The translations under genes were made by a program, and so were the position numbers. A DNA stretch of 64,000 bases, from assembly GCF_004336805.1 (NCBI RefSeq), contig NZ_SJXM01000002.1, positions 124,001 through 188,000 of the forward strand. The letters run 5' to 3'. Below the pieces are notes generated by a model. That model was not told the origin of the DNA and searched no databases. It saw only the letters and a list, made by a program, of their open reading frames with translations. The DNA is from Aeromicrobium sp. IC_218 (GTDB taxonomy: Bacteria; Actinomycetota; Actinomycetes; Propionibacteriales; Nocardioidaceae). Position 1 is the stretch's first letter. Every line of letters starts with the position of its first letter. Shown here piece by piece: positions 21,431-25,025 of this stretch.

Positions 21431-21626
21431 ACGGCGAAGGGCCCCGGTCCGCATGGAACCGGAGCCCTTCGCCTGGCGTGACTCAGTCGAGGTAGTCGCG
21501 CAGCACCTGCGAGCGCGACGGGTGACGCAGCTTGCTCATCGTCTTGGACTCGATCTGGCGGATGCGCTCACGCGTCGCGCCGTAGACCCTGCCGATCTCG
21601 TCAAGCGTCTTGGGCTGGCCGTCGGT
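21431..21626. repeat. 196-bp direct repeat, distal copy (sigA 3' end plus terminator)
   Basis: Aligns without gaps to 24830-25025, with 9 mismatches in 196 bp. It contains the last 47 codons of a sigA 3' end, the stop and the terminator hairpin. It and the proximal copy are the boundaries of the XRE-kinase-TPR cassette. Of the five mismatches in the coding part, three are silent and two change residues (Lys to Arg, Val to Ala in the [13 protein letters not shown] motif). Confidence 0.92.
21437..21469 (-). terminator. Terminator of displaced sigA 3' end (decayed copy)
   Basis: Counterpart of the sigA terminator at 24836-24868. The stem AAGGGCCCCGGT is now opposed by ACCGGAGCCCTT, so one pair is broken. 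It may still end transcription coming from the TPR gene. Confidence 0.55.
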
Positions 21627-21647
21627 ACCGGATACAAGGCGGATCAA
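21483..21647 (-). pseudogene. Truncated sigA 3' fragment (sigma region 4.2), possible 54-codon ORF
   Basis: Encodes [20 protein letters not shown] and onward to [11 protein letters not shown], the sigma region 4.2 helix-turn-helix that contacts the -35 element, followed by a normal stop. It lacks all upstream sigma regions. It is in the same frame as the TPR gene: the TPR stop TAG (21648-21650) is followed at once by TTG, giving an open frame of 54 codons that begins MIRLVSG if the TTG is used. It may be an inert relic of integration, or a small sigma-4 polypeptide coupled to the TPR gene. The Val-to-Ala change in a very conserved motif suggests relaxed constraint. Confidence 0.75.
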
Positions 21648-23408
21648 CTAGAAGAGGGTAGGCCAGGGCCATCCGTTTCGCAGCGCGCTCTCCTTCAACA
21701 AAGCAACACTAGAGTCCGAATCATCGATCCCTTCAAGTTCTGAAACCGGCAGCGAATTACCTTGGATCTCGACAGGGTCTTGCCGTTCCACGATACCCAA
21801 CCGGTACATACCCTGAGCCTCGTAGACCGCCATCAGACCGCGCATGGCGGCCTGACGCGGCCCACGTGGAATAGCGCTGAAAGCGTCACGGTAGTCCCTC
21901 GCGCCTCCACTGAAGTCACCCGCCGCCATTCGTGCGAGGCCTCGCGTGGCCAACATGACCGGGTCCAGGTTGGAGGCACGTCCGAGGATCTTCAAGGCTT
22001 CATCGCCGTAACCGCCTGAGGCAAGAATAAAAGCACTCTGGTTGACCATGTAACGACCAGCGATCAACCCCTTCCTCTCCATCCGTCGAACCAACGAGAT
22101 GGCTGGTTCCCACCGCTCGAAGAGGTGTCCCTCCAGCATAGCAACGTTACCGATAGCGAATTCATTGAATTCGTCCCGCTCCAGAAGTTCGCGGGCTCTA
22201 TTCAGAGAAGTCTCCCAATCTTGCTTCAGAAATGCGATGTGGGATTCCAAGCGAAGTGCATAGTTTCGAGTGAATTCATGTCGAATTCTGTCATAGAGGC
22301 TCTCGACGATCTCCCCGTCCCGCTTGGTGTCACCCATTTCGACCAACCAATCGACCAGATTGGACGAGACCGATTGCCTACACGCATCAAGGACCTTCAC
22401 AAAAACATCAGCGCGAGCGTTCAGGCCTAGGCGAGCACCCAGTACGGAAGAATACAATTCCGCTTCCGACCTAAGCGATTCCGTCGCAGCCGGATGATTT
22501 CCGGCACGACGCAGGACCCTCATCGCCTCAGGCTTTCGATCCATCTGATCCAGAGCTTCGGCCTCTAGACGCAATAGATCAGGGTCATCTATACCGCGTG
22601 TCTTGAGCCGACGAACCTCGGCAAGCACCTCCGAGACCATCCCCGCACCCAACATCAGGCGAAGCGAATCGAGTGAGATGTCTTTACGACCAGGAGCTAG
22701 CAAAGCCGCCTCTCTAGCGGACTTGATCGCCTTCGCGTAGGAACCAACCCGCCAGTAGGCGAACGCCAGATTCATATGGTCCTGAGGCGTGTTGAAGCCG
22801 GATCGCAGGCGACTTCGCAGGTGCTTGATCGCGACGTGGGGATTTCCCAGCTCGAGTTCCAGATAAGCGCGGATATCAAGAGAATCATCCCGCTCCGAAT
22901 TGTCCAACAACGACAACGCCTCTGAAAACTGTCCCTCGTTTGCGAGGACGATCGCCCAAAGTCGAGTACTCGGCAAATCCGGGCGCCGCGCGCCAACATT
23001 GTCCAAGTGCATTTGGAGCTCACCGAAAAGGCCCGCCCGGATCAATTCTTCGCCTGCGACCTCAAGCAGGGCAGCGTCCGCCGTACGGGTTACACGCGCA
23101 TCGGCCAAAGATACAAGCGAACGCCGCGCAGCATCAATGGCGACCTCCACATCACCGCTCATGCGAGCGGACTGCATTGCGCGCACCCAGCCGGTTGGAG
23201 TGTTCATTCGCTCCGCAAATTCCAGACTACGCCGTTGCAGATCGCGGAGGTTGCGTGAGATTACCTCTCCTGAGACAGTGCGGGAAAGACGAGGCCCATT
23301 GTCACGCTCACGAAGTTGCTCGCCTACATCCCCGGGGCGAACAGCATGCGGCACGCTCCTAGCCGCTGGGCTTACCCGCGGGGCGTCGAGAGCACTAACG
23401 CCGGCCAT
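21648..23408 (-). CDS. TPR-repeat protein of sigA-integrated cassette
   Basis: 586-residue soluble protein, not assigned to a named family. From about residue 80 it is built of helical pairs typical of tetratricopeptide repeats, for example LNLAFAYWRVGSYAKAIKSA-type units at about 205-225 and LLRLEAEALDQMDRKPEAMR near 295-315. The N-terminal 75 residues are Arg-rich and disordered-looking. There is no signal peptide or membrane helix. The start overlaps the end of the kinase gene by 14 bp, so the two are coupled. Base composition and codon use are clearly AT-richer than the flanks. By analogy with kinase-TPR pairs it may be a substrate, sensor or scaffold for the kinase; that is inference. 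Confidence 0.8.
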   Translation of the reverse strand: MAGVSALDAPRVSPAARSVPHAVRPGDVGEQLRERDNGPRLSRTVSGEVISRNLRDLQRRSLEFAERMNTPTGWVRAMQSARMSGDVEVAIDAARRSLVSLADARVTRTADAALLEVAGEELIRAGLFGELQMHLDNVGARRPDLPSTRLWAIVLANEGQFSEALSLLDNSERDDSLDIRAYLELELGNPHVAIKHLRSRLRSGFNTPQDHMNLAFAYWRVGSYAKAIKSAREAALLAPGRKDISLDSLRLMLGAGMVSEVLAEVRRLKTRGIDDPDLLRLEAEALDQMDRKPEAMRVLRRAGNHPAATESLRSEAELYSSVLGARLGLNARADVFVKVLDACRQSVSSNLVDWLVEMGDTKRDGEIVESLYDRIRHEFTRNYALRLESHIAFLKQDWETSLNRARELLERDEFNEFAIGNVAMLEGHLFERWEPAISLVRRMERKGLIAGRYMVNQSAFILASGGYGDEALKILGRASNLDPVMLATRGLARMAAGDFSGGARDYRDAFSAIPRGPRQAAMRGLMAVYEAQGMYRLGIVERQDPVEIQGNSLPVSELEGIDDSDSSVALLKESALRNGWPWPTLF

Positions 23409-24465
23409 AACTCTCCTTAGGACGTCGGTTTTCTTTCTCAGAGATCTCTAGACGCTTGATCACAATATCTATGCGTCGAAGCAACCATTCCAAGGACTCA
23501 GGGGGAAGATTCACCTTGCGGCCACGAGTAATTTTCAACCTCTCGGCGGGCACCGGATCGCAAAGCACTCTGAGCAAAGATGTCGCGTAAGAGGCAACGT
23601 TCCTAGGTAGTGCAGACTCGAACAGATCGAAGGACCGCTCATACTGCGACCGCAGCGACGACAAGTCGGCACGTAGACCAGCACGGACATTTGCTTGATT
23701 TCTTGCTAGAAGCTGCCCGTCGGGATTGATGGCCAATGACGATATCCCGACACCAACAATGATCTCAAACAGAACAGACCCAAGCCCATACAAGTCAGCG
23801 CAACGGTGGGTGAGAGCGCTATCGTCCCCTTGCGCCCACAAGAATTCGGGAGGCGCGAACCTCAAGTCTCCGCGCCCGAGAACATAGTCGTCGAGAGCAT
23901 GAACAGGGGGCTCTCCCAGTGACCTCGAGCGCCCCAGATCCGAGACTTTACACCCCTCCCTTCCTATCGAGCTCCCGACGAAGACGAGGCAGTTTGCTGA
24001 CTTCATGTCCCTGTGGACGACATTTCGCATGTGCATTTGGTGCACACCGAGAACCACCGCCCGCCAGAGTCGGAACTTCTCCAGCAGTGCGAGGTCGTCG
24101 GGCGCGCAGATCAGTTCCTCGAGACAGCAGTCGGCCAGCTCAAGAATGATGCATGGGAGTTCCATAGTGAATGGCACCCCCGAACCCACCGCCTCAAGCA
24201 TCACTTTGACGGTCCGCCTATCACCGTCCATCGCGACAACATTCGAAGAACCTTGGAGAGAGGTCAAGAGACGCGCCTCCCGCTCAAATTCGGTCGACGC
24301 GTCCGAATCAGGTGTGGGATTCAGGACCTTCAGTGCGCGACTGTCGCCGGTCGAATCATGGACGATTCTGAAAACGTCGCAAAAACCGCCGCCACCAAGA
24401 TGCTCAACGATCTCGTACCCATCGACCCGGGTCCCGATGAGCAACGTATCCCAAGGCGCGGTCAC
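23395..24465 (-). CDS. Hanks-type Ser/Thr protein kinase, soluble
   Basis: 356-residue kinase. The Gly loop GGGGFCDV is at 24-31, the ATP lysine Lys46 in ALKVL, the alpha-C Glu near residue 61, HRDMKSAN at 151-158 with catalytic Asp153 and Asn158, and Asp176 in DLG in place of DFG; the APE motif is APPEF at 204-208. All residues needed for catalysis are present. There is no transmembrane helix or PASTA domain, unlike PknB-type kinases, so it is cytosolic. The GTG start overlaps the XRE stop by 4 bp, and its 3' end overlaps the TPR gene. Composition is AT-richer than the chromosome around it. Confidence 0.88.
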   Translation of the reverse strand: MTAPWDTLLIGTRVDGYEIVEHLGGGGFCDVFRIVHDSTGDSRALKVLNPTPDSDASTEFEREARLLTSLQGSSNVVAMDGDRRTVKVMLEAVGSGVPFTMELPCIILELADCCLEELICAPDDLALLEKFRLWRAVVLGVHQMHMRNVVHRDMKSANCLVFVGSSIGREGCKVSDLGRSRSLGEPPVHALDDYVLGRGDLRFAPPEFLWAQGDDSALTHRCADLYGLGSVLFEIIVGVGISSLAINPDGQLLARNQANVRAGLRADLSSLRSQYERSFDLFESALPRNVASYATSLLRVLCDPVPAERLKITRGRKVNLPPESLEWLLRRIDIVIKRLEISEKENRRPKESYGRR

Positions 24466-24760: not shown

Positions 24761-24789
24761 AATGTACCTTTCGTTGCCGAGAGTGGCAA
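24761..24789 (-). promoter_or_regulatory. Promoter of XRE-kinase-TPR operon
   Basis: On the minus strand, TTGCCA (24784-24789) and TACATT (24761-24766) are separated by exactly 17 bp, a good housekeeping sigma match. Transcription would start within a base or two of the GTG at 24755, predicting a leaderless message. Confidence 0.65.
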
Positions 24790-24790
24790 C
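24773..24790. promoter_or_regulatory. Inverted-repeat operator overlapping -35 of the XRE operon
   Basis: GTTGCC-GAGAGT-GGCAAC, a perfect 6-6-6 inverted repeat. It covers the -35 hexamer of the cassette promoter, so a bound dimer would block polymerase. The encoded XRE protein is the natural candidate to bind it. Confidence 0.6.
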
Positions 24791-24829
24791 AGCCGAGCCC
24801 GCAGATGCTCGCGCGCGTGCGTTGCTCGG

Positions 24830-25025
24830 ACGACGAAGGGCCCCGGTCCGCACGGAACCGGGGCCCTTCGTCTGGCGTGACTCAGTCGAGGTAGTCGCGC
24901 AGCACCTGCGAGCGCGACGGGTGGCGCAGCTTGCTCATCGTCTTGGACTCGATCTGACGGATGCGCTCACGCGTCACGCCGTAGACCTTGCCGATCTCGT
25001 CGAGCGTCTTGGGCTGGCCGTCGGT
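24830..25025. repeat. 196-bp direct repeat, proximal copy (functional sigA 3' end)
   Basis: Covers the last 47 codons of intact sigA, its stop and terminator. It matches 21431-21626 at 187 of 196 positions with no gap. Distance between repeat starts is 3,399 bp, the size of the inserted unit. Confidence 0.92.
24836..24868 (-). terminator. sigA terminator
   Basis: A 12-bp stem AAGGGCCCCGGT / ACCGGGGCCCTT, extended by an imperfect CCG/CGG pair around the loop, 14 bp after the sigA stop. It also separates sigA transcription from the cassette promoter, which reads in the same direction just downstream. Confidence 0.75.

Follow-up and report, generated by a model that had tools for sequence, protein, structure and literature searches.

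The 3' end of sigA, the gene for the principal sigma factor, was analysed in a window of 64,000 nucleotides from Aeromicrobium sp. IC_218 (contig NZ_SJXM01000002.1, assembly GCF_004336805.1), and all coordinates given for this genome follow the numbering of that window. Two direct repeats of 198 bp, which align without gaps and are identical at 189 of 198 positions (21429-21626 against 24828-25025; spacing 3399; blastn E=1e-89), each contain the last 47 codons of sigA, the stop codon and a hairpin terminator. One repeat (copy B) is joined to the intact gene and the other (copy A) lies stranded beside a chromosomal gene. Between them is a cassette encoding an XRE-family regulator, a protein kinase and a tetratricopeptide-repeat (TPR) protein, so that the insertion unit of 3,399 bp comprises one 198-bp repeat and 3,201 bp of XRE-kinase-TPR cassette. 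The features of the locus are as follows.

24882-26237, minus strand: sigA, principal sigma factor gene, intact (open reading frame; Pfam Sigma70 r1.2, r2, r3 and r4)
24828-25025, minus strand: copy B, the last 47 codons of sigA with stop codon and terminator, joined to intact sigA (189/198 against copy A)
24882-24901, minus strand: 20-bp core TGCGCGACTACCTCGACTGA within copy B, equal to the attachment (att) core of sigA-targeting elements elsewhere
24756-24827, minus strand: cassette promoter region with the palindrome GTTGCC-N6-GGCAAC, 17 bp before the XRE start
24462-24755, minus strand: XRE-family helix-turn-helix regulator, 97 residues (Pfam HTH_31, 4.7e-11)
23395-24465, minus strand: Ser/Thr protein kinase, 356 residues (Pfam Pkinase, 1.9e-22; HRD and DLG motifs visible)
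21648-23408, minus strand: TPR-repeat protein, 586 residues (Pfam TPR_2, 8e-11)
21429-21626, minus strand: copy A, stranded 47-codon sigA end with terminator (189/198 against copy B)
21483-21502, minus strand: 20-bp core TGCGCGACTACCTCGACTGA within copy A, equal to the same att core
20939-21376, minus strand: chromosomal gene adjoining copy A (no Pfam family; directly after sigA in the sister genome G012)

The natural start of sigA is probably the ATG at 26207. Non-coding sequence at the two ends of the cassette is limited to about 21 bp and about 72 bp, and the guanine plus cytosine (GC) content of the cassette is 57.5%, against 72.0% for the window. None of the three cassette genes was identified as a recombinase using Pfam, and no tRNA gene was found within the 64-kb window using ARAGORN. 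The original prediction, made from the window alone, had described two gap-free sigA ends (187/196 identical) enclosing an AT-richer XRE-kinase-TPR operon with no visible recombinase; each of these points was borne out, with a slightly longer repeat. Copies A and B differ at nine positions (21434, 21454, 21463, 21472, 21525, 21558, 21577, 21589 and 21603). An assembly or contamination artefact duplicating the sigA end, one of the findings that the original prediction had named as fatal to it, is extremely improbable: the genome is a draft of 25 contigs and repeats can mislead assemblers, but the copies carry these nine differences, lie well inside a 414-kb contig and have flanks collinear with those of G012.

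The locus was compared across a genus set of 49 genomes, five of which (G004, G031, G032, G033 and G038) gave no real sigA-end match and were not judgeable. Two full copies of the sigA end were present in this genome only, and the TPR protein was likewise confined to it among the 49. The relative closest by locus DNA, G012, carries one copy of the sigA end with collinear flanks; window positions 24829-30214 match it at 92% and 20566-21626 at 84%, and these two matches share one stretch of 201 bp. What lies between the repeats is an insertion at the sigA 3' end, for which G012 shows a true empty site: a single sigA end followed by the 20939-21376 gene, as had been anticipated except that this gene matches no DUF6474 model. 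Gain in this genome, rather than loss in G012, is the simpler reading of the direction of change because the TPR gene occurs in none of the other genus genomes.

The two copies differ in their state. Copy A carries a K-to-R change (21589) and a V-to-A change (21577) at residues which are K and V in 29/29 relatives, and at 21603 the base of copy B is that of 28 of the 29. Because these changes fall at residues fixed in all 29 relatives, copy A is, as judged from its sequence, free of selection as sigA and not a working sigA end. Over the 54 positions after the stop codon, copies A and B show four mismatches and no gaps, whereas copy B differs from G012 at six and copy A at eight, each with gaps in addition; in the coding part the mismatches number five (A-B), four (A-G012) and one (B-G012). 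Since the terminators of A and B align without gaps and each is gapped against G012, the spare end appears to derive from this lineage or from one at about sister-species distance, and the data fix its origin no closer. G012 has the base of copy B at seven of the nine differing positions and that of copy A at the other two (21434 and 21525), a comparison which decay of copy A confounds, and no switch of ancestry is seen at the att core.

The route we favour, with a probability of roughly 45%, is a Campbell-type insertion in which a circle bearing the cassette and a sigA end entered by one homologous crossover. The insertion would most simply have occurred after the split from the sister G012. 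The donor would have been a circular or circularised molecule bearing the cassette and a sigA 3' end, from the organism's own lineage or one at about sister-species distance, and a single crossover between the donor and chromosomal sigA ends would have been carried out by host homologous recombination. Such an event would leave sigA whole with its terminator, strand a spare end of 47 codons next to the former neighbour and put one terminator on each side of the cassette. We infer both the circle and homologous recombination as the agent; the latter explains the facts more simply than a recombinase does. The repeat is a long homology of which one copy restores sigA and the other is truncated; in Campbell-type (insertion-duplication) integration, too, homologous direct repeats bound the insert without a recombinase and leave one full gene and one truncated copy. 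This type of insertion is familiar mainly from engineered plasmids; unlike those, the cassette is natural and has no vector functions left. The proposal in the original prediction that a circle carrying its own sigA end had integrated therefore stands in part: the architecture is the one expected, but recombinase-mediated integration is disfavoured by the 198-bp length of the repeat and the lack of arm-type sites.

Several observations weigh against Campbell-type insertion. No donor or free circle was found in plasmids and viral contigs searched for the TPR protein and the kinase (the viral contigs using short patterns) or in phages searched for the TPR protein only. The repeat includes the core through which a genuine integrase family, described below, targets precisely sigA. 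The lineage signal is modest, with nine mismatches between A and B over the whole repeat and seven plus gaps between B and G012, and the coding part of copy A is as near to G012 (four mismatches) as to copy B (five). The nine differences do not place the crossover, B could seem the native copy through decay of A alone, and positions 21525 and 21558 are freely variable. Loss of the cassette in G012 would also account for the empty site there. Finally, one-sided homologous insertion followed by end joining leaves the same product, and the genome encodes Ku. This last route, a homology-facilitated illegitimate insertion, would start from a linear donor with a sigA end beside the cassette; one end would pair at sigA and the other would be joined, for example by a Ku-dependent reaction, within the last 47 codons, producing a local duplication of them. 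It would allow copy A to be the original chromosomal end, now decaying, and fits the abrupt junction 21 bp past the TPR stop codon as well as the presence of Ku. However, the donor must already have carried the cassette behind sigA and none was seen, the 341 genomes of the family containing two other strong TPR relatives whose 12-kb surroundings were viewed without a dedicated sigA search. We regard this route as rather unlikely.

The wider use of the sigA 3' end was followed from a degenerate sigA-end pattern, which led to three viral contigs; an alignment of their integrases was then used to find further loci. All three viral contigs with a sigA end, one of them 40.7 kb long, have a XerC/D-like integrase gene directly beside it. 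The alignment search yielded 50 loci in named genomes and nine in viral contigs, three of these being the starting contigs. The integrase lies directly behind sigA in 40/50 genome loci; 39 have the full 46-residue sigA end at most 700 bp upstream of the integrase and L122, where the match is split in two, is the fortieth, while of the other ten, two begin so close to the end of a contig that no decision is possible and eight show no such sigA end. Among the viral contigs the sigA end is beside the integrase in 4/9, three are truncated too early to show it and two contain the core but no sigA coding sequence. Between the sigA end and the integrase match lie 87-359 bp. Hosts include Streptomyces, Mycobacterium, Nocardia and Nocardioides and span many actinobacterial families.

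Because the starting pattern had selected for sigA ends, an independent sample of 360 genomes of the class was examined and gave 15 integrases in 14 genomes at 1e-75. The six best (E<=4.0e-151) are without exception behind sigA (6/6), and none of the remaining nine is (0/9); the model was built from sigA-adjacent integrases, so this result bears on whether relatedness goes with the choice of site and not on how frequent the site is overall. A single clade for all sigA-targeting integrases was not supported, as a tree of 71 sequences needs 14 label changes and its well-supported branches force at least eight. The sigA label is nevertheless clustered on this tree, 14 changes being fewer than in any of 500 shuffles (mean 20.7), with long branches and cut contigs blurring the result. 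The sigA 3' end is an attachment site of a XerC/D-like tyrosine integrase family in many actinobacterial families, and the view that the principal sigma factor gene is an unusual landing site was not upheld. We consider this family the more interesting result, the cassette being a variant of a known insertion type. For the integrase relatives in two genomes of the genus, G009 and G022, the surrounding sequence that was retrieved contains no sigA end. Three loci have core and integrase without sigA coding sequence upstream (L127, 9019-9039; L129, 9876-9896; L154, 481-500, the last from the genus of the window), an arrangement as expected of a phage attachment site (attP) or an element junction.

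Insertions that lie behind an essential gene and rebuild its end are best known from tRNA genes. In M. smegmatis, phages with tyrosine integrases are reported to use tRNA genes exclusively, and in M. abscessus 4/16 such sites are non-tRNA (review PMC9262239). Seven non-tRNA tyrosine-integrase sites are described for M. abscessus in PMC10654092, and a sigA site may be among those in its tables. In the literature text searched, with supplements lying outside the search, neither sigA nor hrdB was named as an attachment site. Vectors that integrate into the genomes of many actinobacteria could be built on the predicted bacterial attachment site (attB), core and arm-type sites.

The sigA-targeting elements were delimited by a second core. 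Using 10-kb flanks, which make far ends findable only within about 10.9 kb and miss larger elements, a second core of 13-24 exact bases was found 9.4-10.8 kb downstream in 10/50 genome loci. Four independent elements were searched over about 60 kb and gave far cores at 10.0, 10.9 and 19.6 kb; none was found in the fourth (G1154), and the contigs of a further two were too short for this search. The 13 elements with a found far end have exact att repeats of 13-24 bp, and element sizes vary and cluster near 10 kb (most of those sized being 9-11 kb). GC content was below that of the flank in the five elements compared. Genes were called in five elements and selected proteins scanned in four (none of L122): L098 encodes a capsid protein, a prohead protease, a primase-polymerase and a weak excisionase match, L107 a capsid protein and a helicase, L077 a D5-like primase, and L082 has two large genes with no match. 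Capsid proteins were present in 2/4 and replication or capsid genes in 3/4 scanned elements. Their gene content suggests a resemblance to capsid-carrying satellites such as capsid-forming phage-inducible chromosomal islands (cf-PICIs), a label which is provisional because capsid genes occur in two of the four only. The sigA 3' end is worth searching for satellites and the cargo that they carry.

Arm-type sites were examined at both ends of the elements. At 18 hand-picked right ends, four of which are cores beside an integrase rather than far ends and two of which (L088 and L109) are the same right end, GATATT was present in 13/18 (between -72 and -74 in 12 of these, at -84 in the other) and a CACAGCGCT-like site, with up to two mismatches, at -22 or -23 in 12/18. 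Three later right ends have the -22 site in 3/3 and GATATT in 2/3. At the left ends GATATT/C occurs in 40/48 and ACAGCGCT-like sites, by a loose criterion, in 44/48.

The cassette shares with these elements insertion exactly at the sigA 3' end, a gene kept whole, an empty site in a relative, the same core of about 20 bp and a lower GC content than the flank. The elements differ from it in having an integrase 87-359 bp behind sigA, short att repeats, arm-type sites and replication or capsid genes. No sigA-type integrase was found in this genome at 1e-75, the best match (4e-27) being at the level of the genus background. GATATT/C and CACAGCGCT-like arm-type sites are absent on both sides of the cassette, which has no short exact att repeat (its repeat being 198 bp at 95%) and no replication or capsid genes, only XRE, kinase and TPR. 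Because it lacks the family integrase, arm-type sites and short repeat, the cassette is probably not a member of the sigA-targeting integrase elements; the shared core would be present in any copy of the sigA end. Homologous insertion, whether through one crossover of a circle or through one-sided homology and end joining, is favoured. A defence-like operon may instead have settled at sigA by a different route, without a recombinase of its own.

A third possible origin is site-specific integration by a sigA-targeting tyrosine integrase acting in trans, with the cassette as a recombinase-less passenger whose attP has grown to a long sigA copy. The occurrence of the 20-bp core inside the repeat, at the attachment site of an integrase family, is consistent with this, as is an insert in another genome of the taxonomic family, G068. 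That insert (L069, 6136-7558) is 1,402 bp long, contains a gene for an RTX-repeat protein and no integrase, and lies between two 21-bp sigA-end cores at the same place, which is empty in G069 of the same genus; both arm-type sites are present at its right end, which is one of the 18 above, and a second contig in the G068 assembly carries the integrase after a sigA-end region of 157 bp that is identical. The insert appears to be a reduced member of the sigA-targeting family, to be taken with care as the G068 draft is 70% complete. For the cassette, however, no GATATT or CACAGCGCT-like arm site lies beside either repeat, the repeat is 198 bp rather than 13-24 bp and the genome has no sigA-type integrase. 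Crossover at the core further predicts that G012 should agree with copy A at the four terminator differences, and agreement was seen at 1/4, which decay of copy A may mask. Integration in trans is unlikely on this evidence. It is equally doubtful that the sigA 3' end is an integration anchor across the Actinomycetota, targeted by related tyrosine integrases of which some belong to capsid-encoding satellites, on which integrase-less cassettes ride in trans, with this cassette as an extreme passenger whose attachment site is now a spare sigA end of 198 bp; were that so, defence genes would come and go while the essential sigA was always rebuilt.

DNA searches for long sigA-end duplications covered 49 genus, 341 family and 391 order genomes (overlapping sets), only two candidates per genome being scored in the family and order searches. 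The same long-repeat architecture, which the original prediction had proposed to look for in other actinobacteria, was not confirmed elsewhere in the family. Eight other genomes of the family had two matches: six second matches proved to be sigma paralogues (230-373 aligned residues), that of G036 was a sigA gene split between contigs, and that of G068 led to the 1.4-kb insert described above. Eight other genomes also had two matches in the order search, where G346 and G348 were set aside as tandem long sigA copies, the two matches in G361 are 1.3 kb apart (untranslated), the second match in G513 is at a contig end, and G351, G353, G356 and G359 make up the remaining four. The tandem copies, spaced about 1.3 kb apart, belong to family f4 (L149 of G346, 3267-5626; L157 and L159 of G348), in which seven genomes have two sigA matches, two of them examined and one more by coordinates only.

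The cargo was compared with defence-system models using PADLOC. The kinase matched mad6 best (6.9e-28) and PDC-M71A at 1.7e-24 over residues 102-342, and the TPR protein gave a weak, partial match to PDC-M71B (1.2e-6). The adjacent kinase and TPR genes of the operon thus match the A and B models, the latter weakly, of the PADLOC candidate defence system PDC-M71; the cassette departs from that system in its weak and partial B match, in a kinase that scores better on mad6 and in its third gene, XRE. No mention of PDC-M71 by name was found in a literature search. The similarity suggests a possible anti-phage role for the operon, of which the TPR protein is the probable effector or sensor.

The same operon, in the same gene order, is present at other places in two other genomes among the 341 of the family, a count which leaves out six weak TPR matches (1e-5 to 1e-3). 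A TPR alignment run against 396 genomes of the phylum at 1e-15 found this genome only and none of the other 395. The palindrome GTTGCC-N6-GGCAAC lies 17-18 bp before the XRE start in 3/3 operons (18 bp in both homologues); it is a putative operator, as expected for autorepression, and the operon is probably autoregulated. The homologous operon of G212 (L070, 1500-7755), which has the same operator, is bounded by a 36-bp repeat similar to the 3' end of a tRNA; an integrase fragment lies within this island and a transposase-like gene interrupts its kinase gene, features which set the island apart from the cassette. No complete tRNA was found there using ARAGORN. Because the same operon occurs elsewhere in two family genomes, one copy with tRNA-like flanks, the cargo is, on this comparative evidence, mobile.

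Behind sigA, the gene adjoining copy A (20939-21376) was assessed in the fetched loci of 29 relatives. It had been put forward as a DUF6474-like gene that normally follows sigA; no DUF6474 model matched, Pfam returning three sub-threshold matches to unrelated families (E<=1), and it does follow sigA in G012, but in that genome only (1/29), so that sigA does not usually have it as a neighbour in the genus. Within the fetched 1.5 kb of sigA, a DUF7455 gene is present in at least 8/29 relatives and a topoisomerase gene in at least 5/29, and the region behind sigA is clearly variable in the genus. A second difference from G012 lies behind sigA at window positions 19661-20565, which include a DUF6338 gene (19877-20503) and have no DNA-level alignment to that genome.

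Terminator hairpins similar to one another occur in the window at 19566-19602, 21435-21471 and 24834-24870, at about nine places on other contigs and also in G012. The matches span about 40 bases in this genome and in G012, resembling a terminator repeat family.

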